Shown here piece by piece: positions 7,919-59,481 of a DNA stretch of 64,000 nt. Location: the NCBI GenBank assembly GCA_036227345.1, contig CP109468.1:3968001-4032000 (forward strand), given 5' to 3'. Position numbers and translations under genes: made by a program. The stretch's first letter is position 1; each line of letters opens with the position of its first letter. The notes under the pieces are model-generated. The model was not told the origin of the DNA. It saw nothing but the letters and a program-made list of their open reading frames with translations, and searched no databases. The stretch is from Streptomyces sp. NBC_01463. GTDB lineage: Bacteria; Actinomycetota; Actinomycetes; Streptomycetales; Streptomycetaceae.

Positions 7919-10242
7919 CCGCGCCGGGGGGAAGAGACGTCCTGGCAGCGATGCCGGACGACGCGCTGGTGGGGTTCAAGCGTCATCTGCACCCCACCGT
8001 CGTCCCGGGGGAAGCGACGTACCTGGTGTCCCCCCGGAATGTCACGGCACTCCACGGCGTCCACGCCGAGGTTCTGGTGCCGTTGCTCGACGGCACCCGG
8101 AGTGTGCGTTCGGTGCTGCACGCCGCGGCACCGGCGCTCACCGCCGAGGAGGCCGGCAACTCGTTACGGGAACTGACCGGCTCGGGGCTGCTGAATTTCC
8201 GCCCGGCACCGTCCGGGAATTCCCCCGCGGCCCTTTCCGATCCGGTGGCCGAGGCCTACTGGGACCTGGCCGGCCTCGACGGCGGCCAGGCCTCCGCGGA
8301 ACTGGCGAAGTCCAGCGTGCGGATCGTGACGGTCGGGGATCTGAACGCCGAGTCGGTCGGGGACGCCTGCCGGGACTCCCGGATCACGGTGGCGGCCCCC
8401 GGCGCCCCCGCCGGGTTCTCCCTCGTCCTGTGCGACGACTACCTGGCGCCCGGGCTGCGCGAGGTGGACGCCGAACACCGGGCGAGCGGCACACCCTGGC
8501 TGATCGCGAAGATGTCCGGCGCCGATCCCTGGGTGGGGCCGGTGTTCCGGCCGGACCGGGGCCCGTGCTGGTCCTGCCTCGCGGCCCGGCTGCGCTGCCA
8601 CCGCGGTTCCGAGCGGCCCGTCCGGCGCGCACTGGGCCTGGACGGGCCGCTCGCCCGGCCGACCGCGTCGCTGGCGGCCGGCCGTTCCATCGCCGTCCAC
8701 ATCGCGGTGCTCGAAACGGCCAAGTGGATGGCCGGTATGCGCTACCCCTCGCAGAACCTCGTCCACACCCTGGACACCCTGCTCCTCCAGGTCCGCACCC
8801 ACCCCGTGAGCCGGCTGCCGCAGTGCGCGGTCTGCGGCGACCCGGGCACGGTCGCCCGGACCGTACGCGCCCCCTTCGTACCCGTGTCGCGGCCCAAGGC
8901 CGATCAGGAGCTGGGCGGCGACCGGGCGCTGACCCCCGAGGAGATGCTCGACCGGTACGGACACCTGGTCAGCCCGGTCACCGGGATCGTCAAGGAGATC
9001 CGCCGCGCCCCGCACACCCCGGACTTCGTCAACAGCTATCTGTCCGGCCACAATCTCGCGGTCAGCCCGCACACCCTCGCCGGGCTCCGCTCCGGACTGC
9101 GCGCACTCAGCGGCGGCAAGGGGCTCAGCGGCACGGAGGCCCGGACGAGCGCCCTGTGCGAGGCGGTGGAGCGCTACAGCGGCACCCGGCAGGGCGACGA
9201 GCCGGTGGTACGGGACAGCTACCGTGCGCTGGGCCCGGCGGCCGTGCACCCCAACTCCTGCCAGCTGTACGACGAGCGGCAGTACCGGACCCGGGAGGCC
9301 TGGAACCGGGGCCGCTCCCACTTCCAGTACGTACCCCGGCCGTTCGACGAGGACATGCCGACCGAGTGGACACCCGTGTGGTCGCTGACGGAGCGGACGC
9401 AACGGCTGCTGCCCACCTCGATGCTCTACTTCGGGAACGGGTCGCTCGCCGGCGGCGGCACCGGCGACGGGCTGCTGGCCGATTCCAATGGCAACGCCGC
9501 GGGCAGCAGCCCCGAGGACGCACTGATCCAGGGGTTCCTGGAAATCGTCGAACGGGACGCGGTCGCCCTGTGGTGGTACAACCGCACACGGCAGCCGGCC
9601 GTCGATCTCGACGCCTTCGACGCGCCCTACGTCCGGCGCTTCAGGGACGGCTACCGCAGGATCGGCCGCGAGCTGTGGGTACTCGACCTGACCTCGGACT
9701 TCGGGATTCCGGTCATGGCGGCGCTGTCCCGGCGCACCGACAAGCCCGCCCAGGACGTGATCTTCGGTTTCGGCGCCCACTTCGACCCGCGTGTGGCCCT
9801 GCGCAGGGCACTGACCGAGATGGGGCAACTGCTGCCGGCGGTGTCCATGGCACGGGCCGATGGCTCGGGTTACGCCCTCGACGATCCGGACCTGTGCACC
9901 TGGTGGCACACGGCTACCACTGACAACCAGCCATATCTGCAGCCTGATCCAGGCATATGCGCCCGCACCCCGCGCAGTTGGGTGTACACGCCCCATGCGG
10001 ACCTGCTGGCCGATGTGGAGCACATCACACGGCTCGTGCGCTCCCGTGGCATGGAGCTTCTGGTGCTCGACCAGACACGCCCCGATCTGGCCATGCCGGT
10101 GGTGAAGGTCATCGTGCCGGGCATGCGGCACTTCTGGGCCCGTCTGGGACCCGGCAGGCTGTACCAAGTCCCGGTGGAACTGGGGCGGTTGTCCCGGCCA
10201 ACCGACTACGGCGCACTCAACCCCATTCCGCTCTTCGTCTGA
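7915..10242 (+). CDS. Fused TOMM leader-binding/YcaO cyclodehydratase
   Basis: The 775-aa protein would bind the leader peptide and use ATP to cyclodehydrate Cys/Ser/Thr to azolines. The N-terminal half is the ocin-ThiF-like partner, with zinc ligands CWSC near residue 218 and CAVC near residue 303. The C-terminal half is a YcaO domain with SGTEARTSALCEAVERYSG at about 410 and SSPEDALIQGFLEIVERDAVALWWYN at about 530-550. The C-terminus NPIPLFV recalls the proline-rich tail of azoline-forming YcaO proteins. The start at 7915 is fixed by the 4-nt overlap with the precursor. A start at 7879 lies inside the precursor and lacks an RBS. Confidence 0.9.
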   Translation: MTAPGGRDVLAAMPDDALVGFKRHLHPTVVPGEATYLVSPRNVTALHGVHAEVLVPLLDGTRSVRSVLHAAAPALTAEEAGNSLRELTGSGLLNFRPAPSGNSPAALSDPVAEAYWDLAGLDGGQASAELAKSSVRIVTVGDLNAESVGDACRDSRITVAAPGAPAGFSLVLCDDYLAPGLREVDAEHRASGTPWLIAKMSGADPWVGPVFRPDRGPCWSCLAARLRCHRGSERPVRRALGLDGPLARPTASLAAGRSIAVHIAVLETAKWMAGMRYPSQNLVHTLDTLLLQVRTHPVSRLPQCAVCGDPGTVARTVRAPFVPVSRPKADQELGGDRALTPEEMLDRYGHLVSPVTGIVKEIRRAPHTPDFVNSYLSGHNLAVSPHTLAGLRSGLRALSGGKGLSGTEARTSALCEAVERYSGTRQGDEPVVRDSYRALGPAAVHPNSCQLYDERQYRTREAWNRGRSHFQYVPRPFDEDMPTEWTPVWSLTERTQRLLPTSMLYFGNGSLAGGGTGDGLLADSNGNAAGSSPEDALIQGFLEIVERDAVALWWYNRTRQPAVDLDAFDAPYVRRFRDGYRRIGRELWVLDLTSDFGIPVMAALSRRTDKPAQDVIFGFGAHFDPRVALRRALTEMGQLLPAVSMARADGSGYALDDPDLCTWWHTATTDNQPYLQPDPGICARTPRSWVYTPHADLLADVEHITRLVRSRGMELLVLDQTRPDLAMPVVKVIVPGMRHFWARLGPGRLYQVPVELGRLSRPTDYGALNPIPLFV

Positions 10243-37403: not shown

Positions 37404-37420
37404 GTTTAGCCGGGCTGAAG
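37404..37420. promoter_or_regulatory. Cluster palindrome copy 1 (GTTTAGCCGGGCTGAAG)
   Basis: It lies between the divergent hemerythrin and SRPBCC genes, about 85-90 nt from each start. It matches the consensus CTTTRGC-N3-GCTRAAG except for its first base. See the findings for the full set. Confidence 0.55.
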
Positions 37421-42345: not shown

Positions 42346-42362
42346 CTTTGGCCCGGCTAAAG
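42346..42362. promoter_or_regulatory. Cluster palindrome copy 2 (CTTTGGCCCGGCTAAAG)
   Basis: It lies 50 nt upstream of the KAS III-like ATG and is identical over 17 nt to the copy at 59334. The arms CTTTGGC and GCTAAAG flank a 3-nt centre with one G:T mismatch. Confidence 0.65.
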
Positions 42363-42463: not shown

Positions 42464-44668
42464 TCAGGAAGCGCTCGCCGCGGGCTGCTCCGCCTTCTTC
42501 TGCGCGGGGGCCGGCTCCTGCGCGGACGGTCCGGCGTCCGGCGGTTCCATCCGGTCCAGGCGCAGGGCCCGGTGCAGTCGCCGCAGGGGGGCCGGGGCCC
42601 ACCAGTTGGCGCTGCCGAGCAGGGCCATCAGCGAGGGCACGAGCAGGGCCCGCACCACGGTCGCGTCGACCAGCACGGCGAACGCGGTGCCGAGGCCGAG
42701 CTCCTTGATGAAGACCAGCCGGGAGAGCGCGAGGGCGCCGACCGCGAGGCAGAACAGGGCCGCCGCCGACGTGACGACGGGACCGGTCCTGGCGAGCCCC
42801 TCGGCCACCGCCGCCCGGTCGTCGAGACCGGCCGACCTGCCCTCCTTGATCCGGCCGAGCAGGAAGACGTTGTAGTCCGTGGACAGGCCGAAGGCGAGCG
42901 CGAAGACCAGCACGGGTGTGGTGACCTCGATGCCGTTCTGGGCGGCGAAGCCGAAGTGGCCGTCCTGGAAGACCCAGACCAGGAAGCCCATGGCGGCTCC
43001 CGTGGACAGCAGGTTCATCACGAGCGCCTTGAAGGGCAGGATCAGCGATCCGCAGAACGCGAAGAGCAGCAGCAGCGTGACGACGGTGAGGATGCCCGCC
43101 GCGAGCGGCAGTTTGTCGCCGATGCTCTCCTTCTGGGCCAGGAAGTCCGCGGTCAGTCCGGTGTAGCGGGACGGGTGCGGCGCCTGGACGTCCTGGACCG
43201 CCGCGGCGGCCTCCTTGGCCCCGGTGCTCAGCGGCGCGCCGCCGAGCACGGCGTCGATCTCCCAGTGCCCGTCGTCGAGACGGAACGGGGCGCCGACCGA
43301 CTCGACGCCCGGGACCGAGCCGATCTGCCGGGCGTACGAGGCGAGCGCGGCCCCGTCGCCGTTCGTGTCGAGGACGATCTGGAGCGGCGAGGCGGGCGGC
43401 TTCGCGAAGTCCTTCTCCAGGCTCTGGGCCACCTTGCCGGCGCTGGTGTCGGCGGGCAGCGTGGAGGCGTCCGCGCCGGTGAACTTGATGCCGAGCACCG
43501 GCGACGCGACCAGCAGCAGCACCGCCGTGGCGGCCACCGCGACGACCGCGGGCCGGTGCATGACGGCCGAGGCCAGCTTGTGCCAGCGGTTGCCCGCCGC
43601 CTCGCCCGCCGAGATGTCGCGCTGCCAGCGGCGCGGCGCGAGGGAGTTGACCCGCCGGCCGAGGACCGCGAGCAGCGCGGGCAGCCCCAGCAGGGCGAAC
43701 AGGGCGGCCGACACGACGGTGATGACGCCCGCGAGGCCCATGGAGCGCAGATACGGGTGCGGGAAGGCGATGAGGGCGGCCAGTGCGGCGGCCACGGTCA
43801 GCGCGCTGAACAGGACGGTGCGCCCGGCGGTCGCCACCGTGCGCCGGACCGCCTCGCTGCCCGCGCCGTGCACCGCGATCTCCTCGCGGTAGCGGGACAC
43901 CATCAGCAGCCCGAAGTCGACCGAGAGACCGAGTCCCAGCGCGAAGGCGAGGTTGAGCGCTCCCGTCGAGACGCTGGTGAACAGTGTGGCGAGCCGCAGC
44001 CCGGCCAGGGTGAGCAGCAGGGAGACGATCGCGCCGACGAGCGGCACCAGTGCGGCGACCACTCCGCGGAACACCAGGAACAGCAGGATGAGGATGAACG
44101 GCAGGGCCAGCGTCTCGGCCTTGGCGAGGTCGGTGTTGGACACGTCGGCGACCTGGACGTGTCCGGGGGTCGGACCGCCGAGCCAGACGTTGCCCCGGAG
44201 TGCCGGGTCGTCCTCGATGGCCTTCTGGAGGGCCTTCTCGGCGTCGATGGTGGCCGACTCCTTCATCGGGCCGACCGAGCCGATGACGAGGGTGCTGCGG
44301 GAGTCGTCCGAGATCAGGGACGGGTTGGACGCGGAGGCGTAGTCGAGGACCTGCTCGACCTCGGGCCGTGCGTCCAGCAGCGCGGCCGCGGCCGCCACCC
44401 GGGCCGGCTTCGGGGTCTTCGCGTCGAGGGGCGCGTCGGTGCGGACGAGCAGGGCGTACCCCTGCTGGGCGTCGATGCCGGTGGCCTTCTCGATGACGTG
44501 CCGGGCCGCGACGTTGGCGCCGCCCGGATCGTCGTAGTCGGAGAGCCCATTGGTCAGTTTGCTCTGCACCGTGCCGCCGAAGAGTGCGGCCAGCACAGTG
44601 GCGAGCACGGCCAGTAAGAGGCTGGCACGCCGCCTGGTATGCAGCGCTGAGCCCAGGGCAGAGAACAT
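42464..44668 (-). CDS. MMPL/RND-family exporter
   Basis: The 734-aa protein has the MMPL arrangement: one N-terminal helix, a large extracytoplasmic domain, then five helices, repeated twice. Typical parts are LTNGLSDYDDPGGANVAARHVIEKATG, GLSVDFGLLMVSRYREEI and the second-half copy FGLSTDYNVFLLGRIKEG. Such proteins export lipids, polyketides or glycolipids, which fits an acyl-tetronate. Alternatively it gives self-resistance. The RBS (GGAAGGTGAGG) is good. It is monocistronic and divergent from the amidohydrolase, sharing the intergenic palindrome. Confidence 0.93.
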   Translation of the reverse strand: MFSALGSALHTRRRASLLLAVLATVLAALFGGTVQSKLTNGLSDYDDPGGANVAARHVIEKATGIDAQQGYALLVRTDAPLDAKTPKPARVAAAAALLDARPEVEQVLDYASASNPSLISDDSRSTLVIGSVGPMKESATIDAEKALQKAIEDDPALRGNVWLGGPTPGHVQVADVSNTDLAKAETLALPFILILLFLVFRGVVAALVPLVGAIVSLLLTLAGLRLATLFTSVSTGALNLAFALGLGLSVDFGLLMVSRYREEIAVHGAGSEAVRRTVATAGRTVLFSALTVAAALAALIAFPHPYLRSMGLAGVITVVSAALFALLGLPALLAVLGRRVNSLAPRRWQRDISAGEAAGNRWHKLASAVMHRPAVVAVAATAVLLLVASPVLGIKFTGADASTLPADTSAGKVAQSLEKDFAKPPASPLQIVLDTNGDGAALASYARQIGSVPGVESVGAPFRLDDGHWEIDAVLGGAPLSTGAKEAAAAVQDVQAPHPSRYTGLTADFLAQKESIGDKLPLAAGILTVVTLLLLFAFCGSLILPFKALVMNLLSTGAAMGFLVWVFQDGHFGFAAQNGIEVTTPVLVFALAFGLSTDYNVFLLGRIKEGRSAGLDDRAAVAEGLARTGPVVTSAAALFCLAVGALALSRLVFIKELGLGTAFAVLVDATVVRALLVPSLMALLGSANWWAPAPLRRLHRALRLDRMEPPDAGPSAQEPAPAQKKAEQPAASAS

Positions 44669-44711: not shown

Positions 44712-44728
44712 CTTTAGCCCCGCTGAAG
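44712..44728. promoter_or_regulatory. Cluster palindrome copy 3 (CTTTAGCCCCGCTGAAG)
   Basis: It lies between the divergent MMPL and amidohydrolase genes, 44 nt and 74 nt from the two starts. Both arms fit CTTTRGC and GCTRAAG. Confidence 0.6.
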
Positions 44729-55978: not shown

Positions 55979-57550
55979 TCAGGCCAGGGCCTGGCGCTCC
56001 CGGAGTCCGTCGACCACGGCCCACAGGGTCGCGGGGGAGGTGAAGACCTCGGGCTCCAGCTCCTCGTCGGGGATGCTGATGCCGTACGTGTTCTCGATGC
56101 TGATGACCACCTCGACCATGGCCAGCGAGTCGAGTCCCACCGCCTTAAGGCTGATGTCGGGCCCGACCTCGCCCCGCTCGGCCAGCCTGGGCAGGATCTC
56201 CTTCAGCAGACCCTCGAACGCCTCGTCCCACTGCTCACTCATGTCAGCTCCTTCGCTGCCGTTCTCGGTCGTTGCGGGGGACGGCCGGGTGACCGCCGGG
56301 ATCTGCTGCCGGTGCAGGGCCAGCCGGGTGGCCGAGACGACCTCGTCGCCGTCGACGAGGACCTCGGCGGGGGCCCGGTGCCCGAGGAAGCCGAGCAGGC
56401 TGGCGGAGAGTCCGTACGCGCCGACGTTCGGGAACGCCAGCACGGCCCCGGAGCGCACCCCGGCCAGCTCCACCCCGCGGCCCAGCAGATCGGCCGGCGT
56501 GCACAGCGGACCGGCCAGGGTGACCCGTTCGGTCGCCGCGTCCTGGCCGGTGTGCAGCGGCCGGGCCTTCATCGGCAGCAGCCGGCCGAGGCCGGAGAGG
56601 CCGCCGAGATGGTTGATGCCGGAGTCGAGCACCGCGAAGCGGGATCCGCGGCTGTCCTTGACGTCGGTGACGGTGGTCAGCAGGGTGCCGCTGTCGCCGA
56701 CCAGGTGGCGGCCGGACTCGAAGGCGACCTGCGGCGCGCCCTCGCGCCAGCCGGGCAGGAACTCGTCGAGCGCCTCGCTCACCGCGGCCCGCAGTCCGGG
56801 GTAGCGGGGCCGGTCACCCGGCACCGCGTAGGGGGCGGCGAAACCGCCGCCCAGGTCCACCAGGCGCAGCTCGATGCCGAGCAGGTCGCGCAGTTCGGCC
56901 GCGGTGCGGGCGGACTGGATGATCTCGGCGCACAGCCCCTTCTCGTCGCGGGCGTTGGTCAGCGGGAAGAAGTGCAGCCCGACGATCCGGACCCCTTCGG
57001 TCTTCAGCCGGTGCGGGGCGTCGGTCAGGACGTCCAGGTCGAAGCCGAACTGCGAGGCGCTGCCGGTCATCCGCAGCCCCGCCTCGCCCGGCGCCCCGGC
57101 CGCGTTGATCCGCAGGACGCAGTCCAGGGTCACGCCGTGCGCGACTCCGGCCGCGCCGACGCGTTCGAGGTCGCCGAAGGACTCGGTCGAGTAGGAACGC
57201 ACCCCGAGGCGGACGGCCTCGTCGAGTTCACCCGGCGTCTTGCCGGGGCCCGAGTAGAGCAACTCGTCGCCGGGGCAGCCCGCTTCGAGGGCCGCGGCGA
57301 GCTCGCCCCGGGAGGTGATCTCCGCGCGGGCGCCGGCCCGTGTCAGCTCGGCGACCAGTCCGGGGTGCGGGTTGGCCTTGAGCGAGTAGTAGAGACGGGA
57401 GTTCTCGGGGAGAGCGGCGGTCAGGTCCCGGTAGGCCTCCCGGACCCGGCCCACGTCGTAGACGTACAGCGGGCTGCCGTACTCCTCCAGCAGCCGCTCG
57501 GCCCGCGCGTCGTCGCCGCCCGGCCGCGGGTCCCGCTGTTCAGATGCCAC
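55979..57550 (-). CDS. PLP-dependent decarboxylase fused to an acyl carrier protein
   Basis: The 523-aa protein has a fold type III (alanine racemase-like) decarboxylase at about 1-420. It includes PLYVYDVGRVREAYRD, the PLP lysine in LYYSLKANPHPGLVAEL near 56, FESGRHLVGDSG, and GPLCTPADLLGRG (the second active-site Cys/Asp). A linker leads to a C-terminal ACP at about 440-520 with the Ser in LKAVGLDSLAMVEVVISIE. No stop separates the domains. The relatives BtrK (butirosin) and the exosortase-associated decarboxylases work on ACP-bound substrates, which the fusion makes explicit. GTG start with AAGGAG 9 nt upstream, overlapping the AMP ligase by 11 nt. Confidence 0.9.
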   Translation of the reverse strand: MASEQRDPRPGGDDARAERLLEEYGSPLYVYDVGRVREAYRDLTAALPENSRLYYSLKANPHPGLVAELTRAGARAEITSRGELAAALEAGCPGDELLYSGPGKTPGELDEAVRLGVRSYSTESFGDLERVGAAGVAHGVTLDCVLRINAAGAPGEAGLRMTGSASQFGFDLDVLTDAPHRLKTEGVRIVGLHFFPLTNARDEKGLCAEIIQSARTAAELRDLLGIELRLVDLGGGFAAPYAVPGDRPRYPGLRAAVSEALDEFLPGWREGAPQVAFESGRHLVGDSGTLLTTVTDVKDSRGSRFAVLDSGINHLGGLSGLGRLLPMKARPLHTGQDAATERVTLAGPLCTPADLLGRGVELAGVRSGAVLAFPNVGAYGLSASLLGFLGHRAPAEVLVDGDEVVSATRLALHRQQIPAVTRPSPATTENGSEGADMSEQWDEAFEGLLKEILPRLAERGEVGPDISLKAVGLDSLAMVEVVISIENTYGISIPDEELEPEVFTSPATLWAVVDGLRERQALA

Positions 57551-59096
57551 CGTCGGTCTCCTTCAGATAGGCCACGAGCCGCTTGCGGTCGGTCTTGCCG
57601 TTGGGGGTCAGCGGCAGCGCGGGGACGACGTGGCAGATGTCCGGCACCTTGGCCGGCTCCAGGCGTTCGGCGAGCCGGGTGAGGGTGTCCTGCGCCGTCG
57701 TCGTGCCGGCCACGAACAGGACCATGTCGCGGTCCTTCTCCGGGACGAGCAGCGAGGCCTCCCGGACCCCGTCGACGTCCAGGGCGGCGGCTTCGATCTC
57801 GATGGCGCTCATGCGCAGTCCCCGCCGCTTGAACAGGTCGTCCCTGCGGCCCTGGAAGTAGAGGTGCCCGTCCCCGTCGAGCCATCCGTAGTCGCCCGTG
57901 TGCAGGGTCTTCACGCCGTCGGGACCGGTGCGGTACCGCAGCGCGGTGGGCTCGGGCGCCCGCCAGTAGCCGGCCATGAGGTGCGGCCCGCGCACGGCGA
58001 TCTCGCCCGTCTCCAGCGGCGGCAGCGGCCGGCCCTCCTCGTCCAGGATCAGCACCTGGGTGCCCGGCAGCGCGGGGCCGACCGAGCCGGGCCGGACGAT
58101 GTCGCCGTCCGGTTCCAGGATGGTGATGCGCTTGCACTCGGTGGTGCCGAACATCGCGGCCACCCGCGCGCCGGGGAACTTCTCGCGCAGTGCGGCGATC
58201 AGCGGGGCGTTGAGCGCGGCGCCCGTGTTGGTGAACAGGCGCACCTTCGTCGGCCGGGAGTCCCGGGTGGCCAGCCTGACCAGCAGCTCGCCGAGCGAGG
58301 GGACGAGCGGCACCACGGTGGCACCGTGGTCGTGGGCGTAGCCGAGCAGCCGGGTGTGCTCGTCGGCGTCGGAGAGCAGCAGTTCGGCCCCGGCGAGCGC
58401 GCAGAGCAGCGCCTGGTAGAGGCCGTAGTCGAAGGAGAGCGGCACCGCGGTGAGCACCACGTCCTGCGAGCGGTAGCCGAGCCGGGCGGCGATGGCCCGG
58501 GCCGCGAACGCGATCGGTGCGTGCGGGCAGGCCACGGCCTTGGGGGCGGAGGTGCTGCCCGAGGTGTAGATGAGCAGGGCCAGCCGGTCGGCCGGCACCG
58601 GGCGGGCCGGGCCGTCCGCCGGCCCGGACGGGGTGAGGTCGATCTCGTCGAAGGCCAGTACGGGCGTGCCCGCCGGCCAGGTCACGCCGTCCGCCGCGGT
58701 GCGTTCCGCGGCGTCCACGACGATCAGGGCCGGCTCGGAGTCGGCGAGTACCGGGCCCAGGTGGTACGCCTTCATCGCGGGGCTGACGGGCACCAGCGTG
58801 GCGCCGTGGCGCCAGGTGCCGTACAGCAGCGCGAGGAACTCCCGGACGCTGCCGATCCGGGTGAGCACGCGGTCGCCGGGGCGGACCCCGAGCTCACCGA
58901 GGCGCTGCTCGAACCCCCGGGCCGCGCGGTCGAGTTCGGCGTAGCTCCACTCCCCCCGGCGGTCACGGACCGCACGGGCCGCGGGGGCGGTGGCCACCGC
59001 GGCGCCGAGGAAGGTCTCGGCGGCGTTCTCGACATCGCTGGAGACGAAGGTGGAGGCGGCGAGCGCCTCGGTGGGCGGGGTCGCGAAGGTGGTCAC
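57540..59096 (-). CDS. Acyl/aminoacyl-AMP ligase
   Basis: The 518-aa ANL-superfamily enzyme has LALLIYTSGSTSAPKAVACPH (P-loop) near 175, MFGTTECKRITILEPDG near 305, GDYGWLDGDGHLYFQGRRDDLFKRRGLRM and LPLTPNGKTDRKRLVAYL with the C-terminal Lys. It resembles the exosortase-associated AMP ligases that pair with a PLP decarboxylase and an ACP, the same trio as here. GTG at 59096 has GGAGG 7 nt upstream and overlaps the stop of the 50-aa remnant (GTGA). It should charge the fused or free ACP with an amino acid; specificity cannot be read off. Confidence 0.88.
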   Translation of the reverse strand: MTTFATPPTEALAASTFVSSDVENAAETFLGAAVATAPAARAVRDRRGEWSYAELDRAARGFEQRLGELGVRPGDRVLTRIGSVREFLALLYGTWRHGATLVPVSPAMKAYHLGPVLADSEPALIVVDAAERTAADGVTWPAGTPVLAFDEIDLTPSGPADGPARPVPADRLALLIYTSGSTSAPKAVACPHAPIAFAARAIAARLGYRSQDVVLTAVPLSFDYGLYQALLCALAGAELLLSDADEHTRLLGYAHDHGATVVPLVPSLGELLVRLATRDSRPTKVRLFTNTGAALNAPLIAALREKFPGARVAAMFGTTECKRITILEPDGDIVRPGSVGPALPGTQVLILDEEGRPLPPLETGEIAVRGPHLMAGYWRAPEPTALRYRTGPDGVKTLHTGDYGWLDGDGHLYFQGRRDDLFKRRGLRMSAIEIEAAALDVDGVREASLLVPEKDRDMVLFVAGTTTAQDTLTRLAERLEPAKVPDICHVVPALPLTPNGKTDRKRLVAYLKETDGGI

Positions 59097-59245
59097 GGTG
59101 CTGCCTCCGTGTGTTCCGTGCAGAGGTGGCCGGCCCGGCGTGCGAAGTCCCGGCCGGATTCGGCGAGCGGGGTGCCGGGCAGCGATTCGGCCGGCCCCGG
59201 CGGCCGGGCTCCGGCATCCGCCACGTGAACGCGTTCCCAGCGCAT
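59093..59245 (-). pseudogene. Internally deleted KAS III-like remnant (50 codons)
   Basis: The 50-codon ORF begins MRWERVHVADAGARPPGPAE and continues to ESGRDFARRAGHLCTEHTE. The first part matches the N-terminus of the KAS III-like enzyme at 41.2-42.3 kb (MRWENVYVAGTG), and the second its His block (KSTWDFARRVGHLGAGDQ). About 270 residues, including the active-site Cys, are missing. The reading frame is still open and is followed directly by the AMP ligase through a GTGA overlap, with GGGAGG 3 nt before the ATG. It could be a decaying duplicate or a retained coupling peptide. Confidence 0.75.
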
Positions 59246-59333
59246 GGTCCTCCCATCGTCGTTGCCGCCATCCGCCGGTACGGGTTCGTGACCGCACCCG
59301 GGATGCGCCTGCCGGGAATGGTCGGGGCCCCGG

Positions 59334-59350
59334 CTTTGGCCCGGCTAAAG
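59334..59350. promoter_or_regulatory. Cluster palindrome copy 4 (CTTTGGCCCGGCTAAAG)
   Basis: It is identical in all 17 nt to the copy at 42346. It lies in the divergent region between the KAS III remnant/AMP ligase operon and the MFS exporter, about 90-130 nt from each start. Confidence 0.65.
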
Positions 59351-59428
59351 ACGACGGCGCGGGCCCGGTCCGGAGAGGGCGGGCGCCCGCTGCGCAAGCG
59401 GGGCTTCAGCAGGCGCGGTGAGGATCGC

Positions 59429-59459
59429 GGAGGGAGCGCGCGCACGTGCCGCTCCCTCC
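59429..59459 (+). promoter_or_regulatory. Hairpin in the leader of the MFS exporter gene
   Basis: GGAGGGAGCG (59429-59438) and CGCTCCCTCC (59450-59459) form a perfect 10-bp stem with an 11-nt loop, about 22 nt before the start codon of the exporter. The left arm contains an anti-SD-complementary GGAGG, so it may influence translation or act as an operator. Confidence 0.35.
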
Positions 59460-59481
59460 CGACGGCGACGGAAGGACCCCG

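Follow-up and report, generated by a model that had tools for sequence, protein, structure and literature searches.

A shrunken KAS III gene ahead of an AMP ligase in a Streptomyces gene cluster: a relic and putative translation leader

A 50-codon open reading frame (ORF) directly upstream of an AMP ligase gene in Streptomyces sp. NBC_01463 is, as comparison with related clusters shows, the real and well-resolved relic of a CerJ-type KAS III gene. The decay of this gene is repeated in related clusters, and a role of the relic as a translation leader is possible. Throughout, the window denotes the whole stretch of 64,000 nucleotides that was analysed, and coordinates refer to it. Among the literature titles and abstract openings listed, none reports this KAS III remnant.

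Anatomy of the remnant

The ORF encodes MRWERVHVADAGARPPGPAESLPGTPLAESGRDFARRAGHLCTEHTEAAP and has all the parts that a translation-coupling leader would need: its own start with a ribosome site, an open frame, and a TGA stop that overlaps the GTG start of the AMP ligase as GTGA (59093-59096). These features had been proposed in the original prediction and were all recovered (Table 1). The AMP ligase queries spanned 57540-59117, that is, with seven codons added upstream of the GTG. Downstream of the AMP ligase lie genes for a PLP decarboxylase with a carrier domain and for acyl-CoA dehydrogenases. The closest named relatives of genes in the window come from Streptomyces.

Table 1. Features of the remnant, its operon and the paralogous KAS III gene in the window.
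Feature	Coordinates	Strand	Basis
Remnant ORF, 50 codons, in frame, of type-1 (AMP-ligase-adjacent) KAS III origin	59093..59245	-	translation, matches to relatives
GGGAGG, putative ribosome-binding site of the remnant ORF	59249..59254	-	read from sequence; similar GGGAG in relatives
Piece A, KAS III codons 1 to ~17	59195..59245	-	blastn to L007, L008, L009
Piece B, codons ~270 to 293 of the L007 KAS III, including DFARR.GHL	59123..59191	-	blastn: L007 963-1036, L008 982-1035, L009 989-1033
Piece C, last codons and stop, with GGAGG (59104-59108) and GTGA overlap	59093..59111	-	blastn to L007, L008, L009 (short matches, extending into the AMP ligase)
AMP ligase (PF00501), GTG start overlapping the remnant stop	57540..59096	-	domain match, sequence
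17-nt palindrome CTTTAGCCGGGCCAAAG, promoter-region element of the KAS III/AMP-ligase operon	59334..59350	-	exact search; core in relatives
Second exact palindrome copy, upstream of the type-2 KAS III	42346..42362	-	exact search
Intact type-2 CerJ-like KAS III paralogue, 351 aa	41241..42296	-	domain, tree, structure-database matches

Measured on the diagonals of the three retained pieces, the window has lost 753 and 141 bp compared with S. flaveus (L007); the second deletion becomes 144 bp against L008 and 153 bp against L009. Every deletion relative to these three loci is a multiple of three, the sizes being differences worked out by hand from blastn positions. The losses add up to ~298 codons (~251 and ~47) and include the cysteine region. 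The earlier idea of a deleted core thus stands as far as the Cys region is concerned, with two deletions in place of one, as ~47 codons are also missing between GHL and the final codons. The supposed middle loss of about 270 residues shrinks to a first deletion of ~251 codons, because ORF codons ~19-28 are also derived from the KAS III gene.

The active-site Cys is necessary in CerJ-type KAS III enzymes. The intact paralogue at 41 kb (hereafter the 41-kb gene) has its closest solved structure in CerJ (PDB 3s3l; residues 1-339, E 7.7e-78), followed by the daunorubicin–doxorubicin enzyme, which we take to be the KAS III-like acyltransferase DpsC, and then ChlB3. Its Cys114, presumably the active-site residue, falls within the part deleted from the remnant. 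Compared with functional CerJ-type enzymes, whose full length would be about 340-360 residues, the 50-codon remnant retains the start and the DFARR.GHL block and is without ~85% of the enzyme, the Cys region included. Its enzyme function must be lost.

Orthologous loci and the origin of the remnant

The ORF had originally been explained as a recent duplicate of the 41-kb promoter–gene unit that lost its core. The likeness on which this idea was built is genuine. Against the 41-kb gene region, blastn with 59093-59480 gives collinear matches of 32/36 over the DFARR.GHL block (E 1e-9), 49/62 with gaps around the palindrome (E 2e-7) and 24/30 at the start (E 0.001). The proposed pairwise comparison of the products yields a best protein score of 59, far above 2000 shuffled controls (mean 27.4, maximum 47), and both KAS III blocks recognized in the 50-aa product are therefore confirmed. 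The identical palindrome before the remnant and the 41-kb gene was confirmed as well.

The same locus in relatives leads to a different origin. Directly upstream of the same AMP ligase, and behind the same palindromic element, relatives carry a full-length KAS III of 348-362 codons. States were counted only in the clade that contains the window, in which the AMP ligases are ~69% identical or more; it comprises 18 loci after genomes under two handles had been merged, as judged by equal coordinates, and L034, whose contig starts within the AMP ligase, was excluded. KAS III is full length in 14/18 loci (L007-L014, L016, L026, L094, L095, L155, L157). Three loci hold in-frame remnants, namely the window, L088 (the genome G244, S. 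yaanensis according to its protein record) and L156 (the genome G607), while L015 (S. acidicola) is without a type-1 KAS III. A short ORF before the AMP ligase in related clusters, as had been anticipated, was thus found in G244 and G607, against a full-length gene in most loci. The neighbouring genes of the window are syntenic with those of G244, L007, L008 and L009, and in the promoter and start region the window agrees with L009 in 82% of 163 aligned positions and with L007 in 80% of 146. The promoter element and neighbours are therefore the same, and the collinear matches to L007, L008 and L009 reach the C-terminal end.

The tree places the 41-kb gene in a distinct type-2 clade of eight rows (support 100/99), which indicates that the duplication into type 1 and type 2 is old, that the 41-kb gene is an older paralogue, and that the remnant is not its copy. 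Together with the full-length KAS III that 14 of the 18 orthologous loci have in this position, comparison of the loci demonstrates that the remnant ORF is a shrunken orthologue of the type-1 KAS III. The shared palindrome and blocks notwithstanding, the duplicate of the 41-kb unit is refuted by orthology and tree and is hardly credible any more.

The genome searches covered 392, 394, 392 and 395 genomes in largely overlapping sets. AMP ligase relatives were the best 80 of 130, and KAS III was looked for in L007-L058, leaving L059-L086 aside. Many of the more distant AMP ligases (e.g., L018-L025) have no KAS III match in the locus and were not counted as losses. In the more distant L027, the KAS III (9150-9990) next to an AMP ligase of 57% identity is disrupted across several frames; L102 holds a partial KAS III resembling that of L027, which is not in the counts.

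The palindrome itself looks like a candidate operator of a cluster regulator. The exact 17-nt element occurs at two sites in the 9.07-Mb genome, both in this cluster, and its 15-nt core is found upstream, with 0-2 changes, in 17/17 relatives of the 18-locus clade. With up to three mismatches there are six matches in the window, two of them the same places on the other strand, a number reached in 0/100 shuffles. Genome-wide, the same threshold adds two further cluster sites (37404 and 44712) and four elsewhere; since a backward control pattern gives more matches (13 and 12), loose sites mean little at this scale. The two looser cluster copies lie at 37404-37420 (+) and 44712-44728 (-), the latter ~44 nt before the start of a gene for an MMPL-like transporter (42464-44668; its family match falls short of the curated cut-off). 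Five type-2 copies retrieved on their own (L137, L179, L118, L139, L141) have no such palindrome within ~1.5 kb, and in L011 and L016 the sole palindrome site precedes the type-1 gene. The copy at 42346 is therefore the odd one: of the type-2 genes checked, only the 41-kb gene of the window has the palindrome in front of it, either gained or alone kept. Between the palindrome and the start of the remnant, at 59287-59308 (-), the window has GCGCATCCCGGGTGCGGTCACG with an inverted repeat, which is common to L007, G244 and the window.

Repeated loss in related clusters

In the AMP-ligase tree, with six more distant rows that have KAS III upstream as the outgroup, G244 and L007 are paired (98/97) and joined by L008 (100/98), whereas the window falls outside this group with modest support (88/85). 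Forcing the window and G244 into one clade costs 48 log-likelihood units and is rejected (AU p=0.0002; this comparison was chosen with the tree already known). A single deletion common to both is thereby ruled out, and their losses are independent, assuming a common history of KAS III and AMP ligase, which is supported by the closeness of the G244 remnant to L007. At least four state changes are needed on the tree of the 18-locus clade. As a shared origin of the losses in G607 and S. acidicola is not rejected (p=0.45), the clade may have seen three independent losses rather than four.

The remnants differ in what is left of the enzyme. That of G244 encodes 47 aa in frame, with deletions of 774 and 132 bp relative to L007, 3 and 2 shared bases at the deletion junctions, and 90% and 94% identity to L007 in the first two pieces. 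The G607 remnant has 88 codons, is in frame and overlaps the AMP ligase as ATGA; it retains roughly the first 11 and the last 17 or more KAS III codons, with an unplaced middle. In S. acidicola (L015, about 8580-8700) the last codons and the AMP ligase come within ~100 nt after the palindrome, KAS III being wholly removed together with its start codon. All the remnants have in common the promoter element, roughly eight initial codons, and the final codons, which include a Shine-Dalgarno-like GGAG and the overlap; these are the parts an expression leader would need. Two different remnants in other species also make an assembly error in the window practically negligible, as do the two separate in-frame deletions with diverged retained codons and the quality of the genome (2 contigs, 99.7% complete); no point in support of such an error was found. 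A protein collection also lists this ORF with a longest contig of 76,506 bases, which would fit a record different from the 9-Mb one.

The loss of type 1 was probably tolerable because the cluster also has an intact type-2 KAS III. Type 2 is also present in G244, G607, L011, L016, the genome of L034, G094 and G187, and is thus intact in all three genomes with a remnant; the G244 gene has 342 codons and two stop codons at and just past its natural end. No type-2 copy was found in the S. acidicola genome. Among genomes in which the type-1 place is readable, type 1 is lost in 3/7 with an intact type 2 present (window, G244, G607; intact in L011, L016, G094, G187) and in 1/11 with type 2 absent (L015; intact in L007-L010, L155, L012-L014, L026, L157), a difference in the direction of redundancy that is not significant (Fisher p=0.245). 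Several of these genomes are drafts, so that absence is only as good as the assemblies, and KAS III matches of at most 41% identity elsewhere in the genomes were not counted as type 2. Essentially, the clusters record repeated gene decay.

Translation leader, plain decay or mini-protein

Two internal deletions, each a multiple of three, took the ~298 codons from the first gene of the operon and spared the promoter, start site, reading frame, stop and AMP ligase ribosome site. In the proposed course of events, the remnant would still be translated, ribosomes ending at GTGA would reinitiate on the AMP ligase, and the ORF would persist as a translation leader and not for its peptide. Translation coupling is a plausible and reasonable reading of the remnant anatomy, with selection for it unproven. 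Passages of PMC12548453 describe the NTGA overlap as the most common spacing, within the range of most efficient coupling. In the remnant, too, the overlap reads GTGA and a Shine-Dalgarno-like GGAGG sits within the upstream ORF; unlike in that system, the upstream ORF is a degraded enzyme gene and the coupling is putative. A comparable setting is the 14-gene tunicamycin operon of Streptomyces, for which parts of PMC6105854 report much apparent translational coupling and several dispensable genes; the words 'remnant' and 'pseudogene' occur 0 times in the main text of that paper.

A second possibility, also put forward originally, is a mini-protein with a new role. Binding to a carrier protein or to the paralogous KAS III would be an example. 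The intact DFARR.GHL block would fit, as would the NCBI record of the G244 counterpart as a hypothetical protein. Against this reading, the three remnants retain different pieces of the enzyme, protein searches with the window or G244 product return the query alone (within the word and length limits of the search), and a single-sequence structure model of the remnant product, made without an alignment and weak for that reason, gives one short helix (mean pLDDT 72.8, pTM 0.30). A mini-protein is therefore very improbable. Since the remnants have nothing in common beyond the start region and the final codons, which carry the AMP ligase ribosome site, a translation leader appears the likelier of the two.

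Plain decay deserves more weight. KAS III would have been dispensable, deletions would have piled up, and the frame would be open by chance in GC-rich DNA, with selection acting on the promoter and the AMP ligase ribosome site only. In a simulation on nine full-length genes, with sizes of the retained pieces chosen by hand, two random deletions leave the frame open to the native stop in 30% of cases. By our own arithmetic, three in-frame remnants among five known losses correspond to a binomial P of ~0.16, and two of four without the window to ~0.35, so that the excess falls short of significance. That the frame is not always kept is further illustrated by the start-less loss in S. acidicola and the broken copy of L027, and the former implies that a leader is not required.

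The retained codons point in the same direction. Over 40 of them, the window differs from L007 at 9/8/10 sites in codon positions 1/2/3 (16 nonsynonymous and 6 synonymous codons), from L008 at 10/7/11 (16 and 8) and from L009 at 11/8/17 (15 and 10). For the same codons, full-length genes differ by 1/1/10 between L007 and L008 (2 nonsynonymous, 9 synonymous), 6/6/13 between L007 and L009 (11 and 9) and 8/5/10 between L007 and L010 (9 and 8); L155 was left out of these counts. The trend suggests relaxed constraint on the retained codons, in a small sample and with no statistical test. On the other side, all four deletions of the window and G244 relative to L007 are multiples of three, for which our arithmetic gives a chance of 1 in 81, bearing in mind that the window ORF was picked because it is open. 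Start, stop and overlap are moreover retained in all three start-bearing remnants of the 18-locus clade. Plain decay remains a serious, if less probable, account of the ORF.

Masking of the ribosome site was considered as a reason for coupling and set aside: the AMP ligase has its own GGAGG, and folding predictions for the surrounding sequence show no clear difference between loci that have the full gene and loci that do not. On the whole, we regard it as fairly probable that this relic of a type-1 KAS III persists as a putative translation leader for the AMP ligase. More tentatively, and with considerable doubt on our part, selection may have reduced the gene convergently, in at least two and probably three lineages, to an in-frame leader of 47-88 codons, the start and the stop/start junction, and not the enzyme, being needed for AMP ligase expression.

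The locus illustrates that an enzyme gene can vanish from the head of an overlapping operon while the start of the next gene survives. Several natural deletion series are available here, in which the dependence on translation coupling could be measured. Hypothetical proteins of small size in such clusters, like the one recorded for G244, may be relics.
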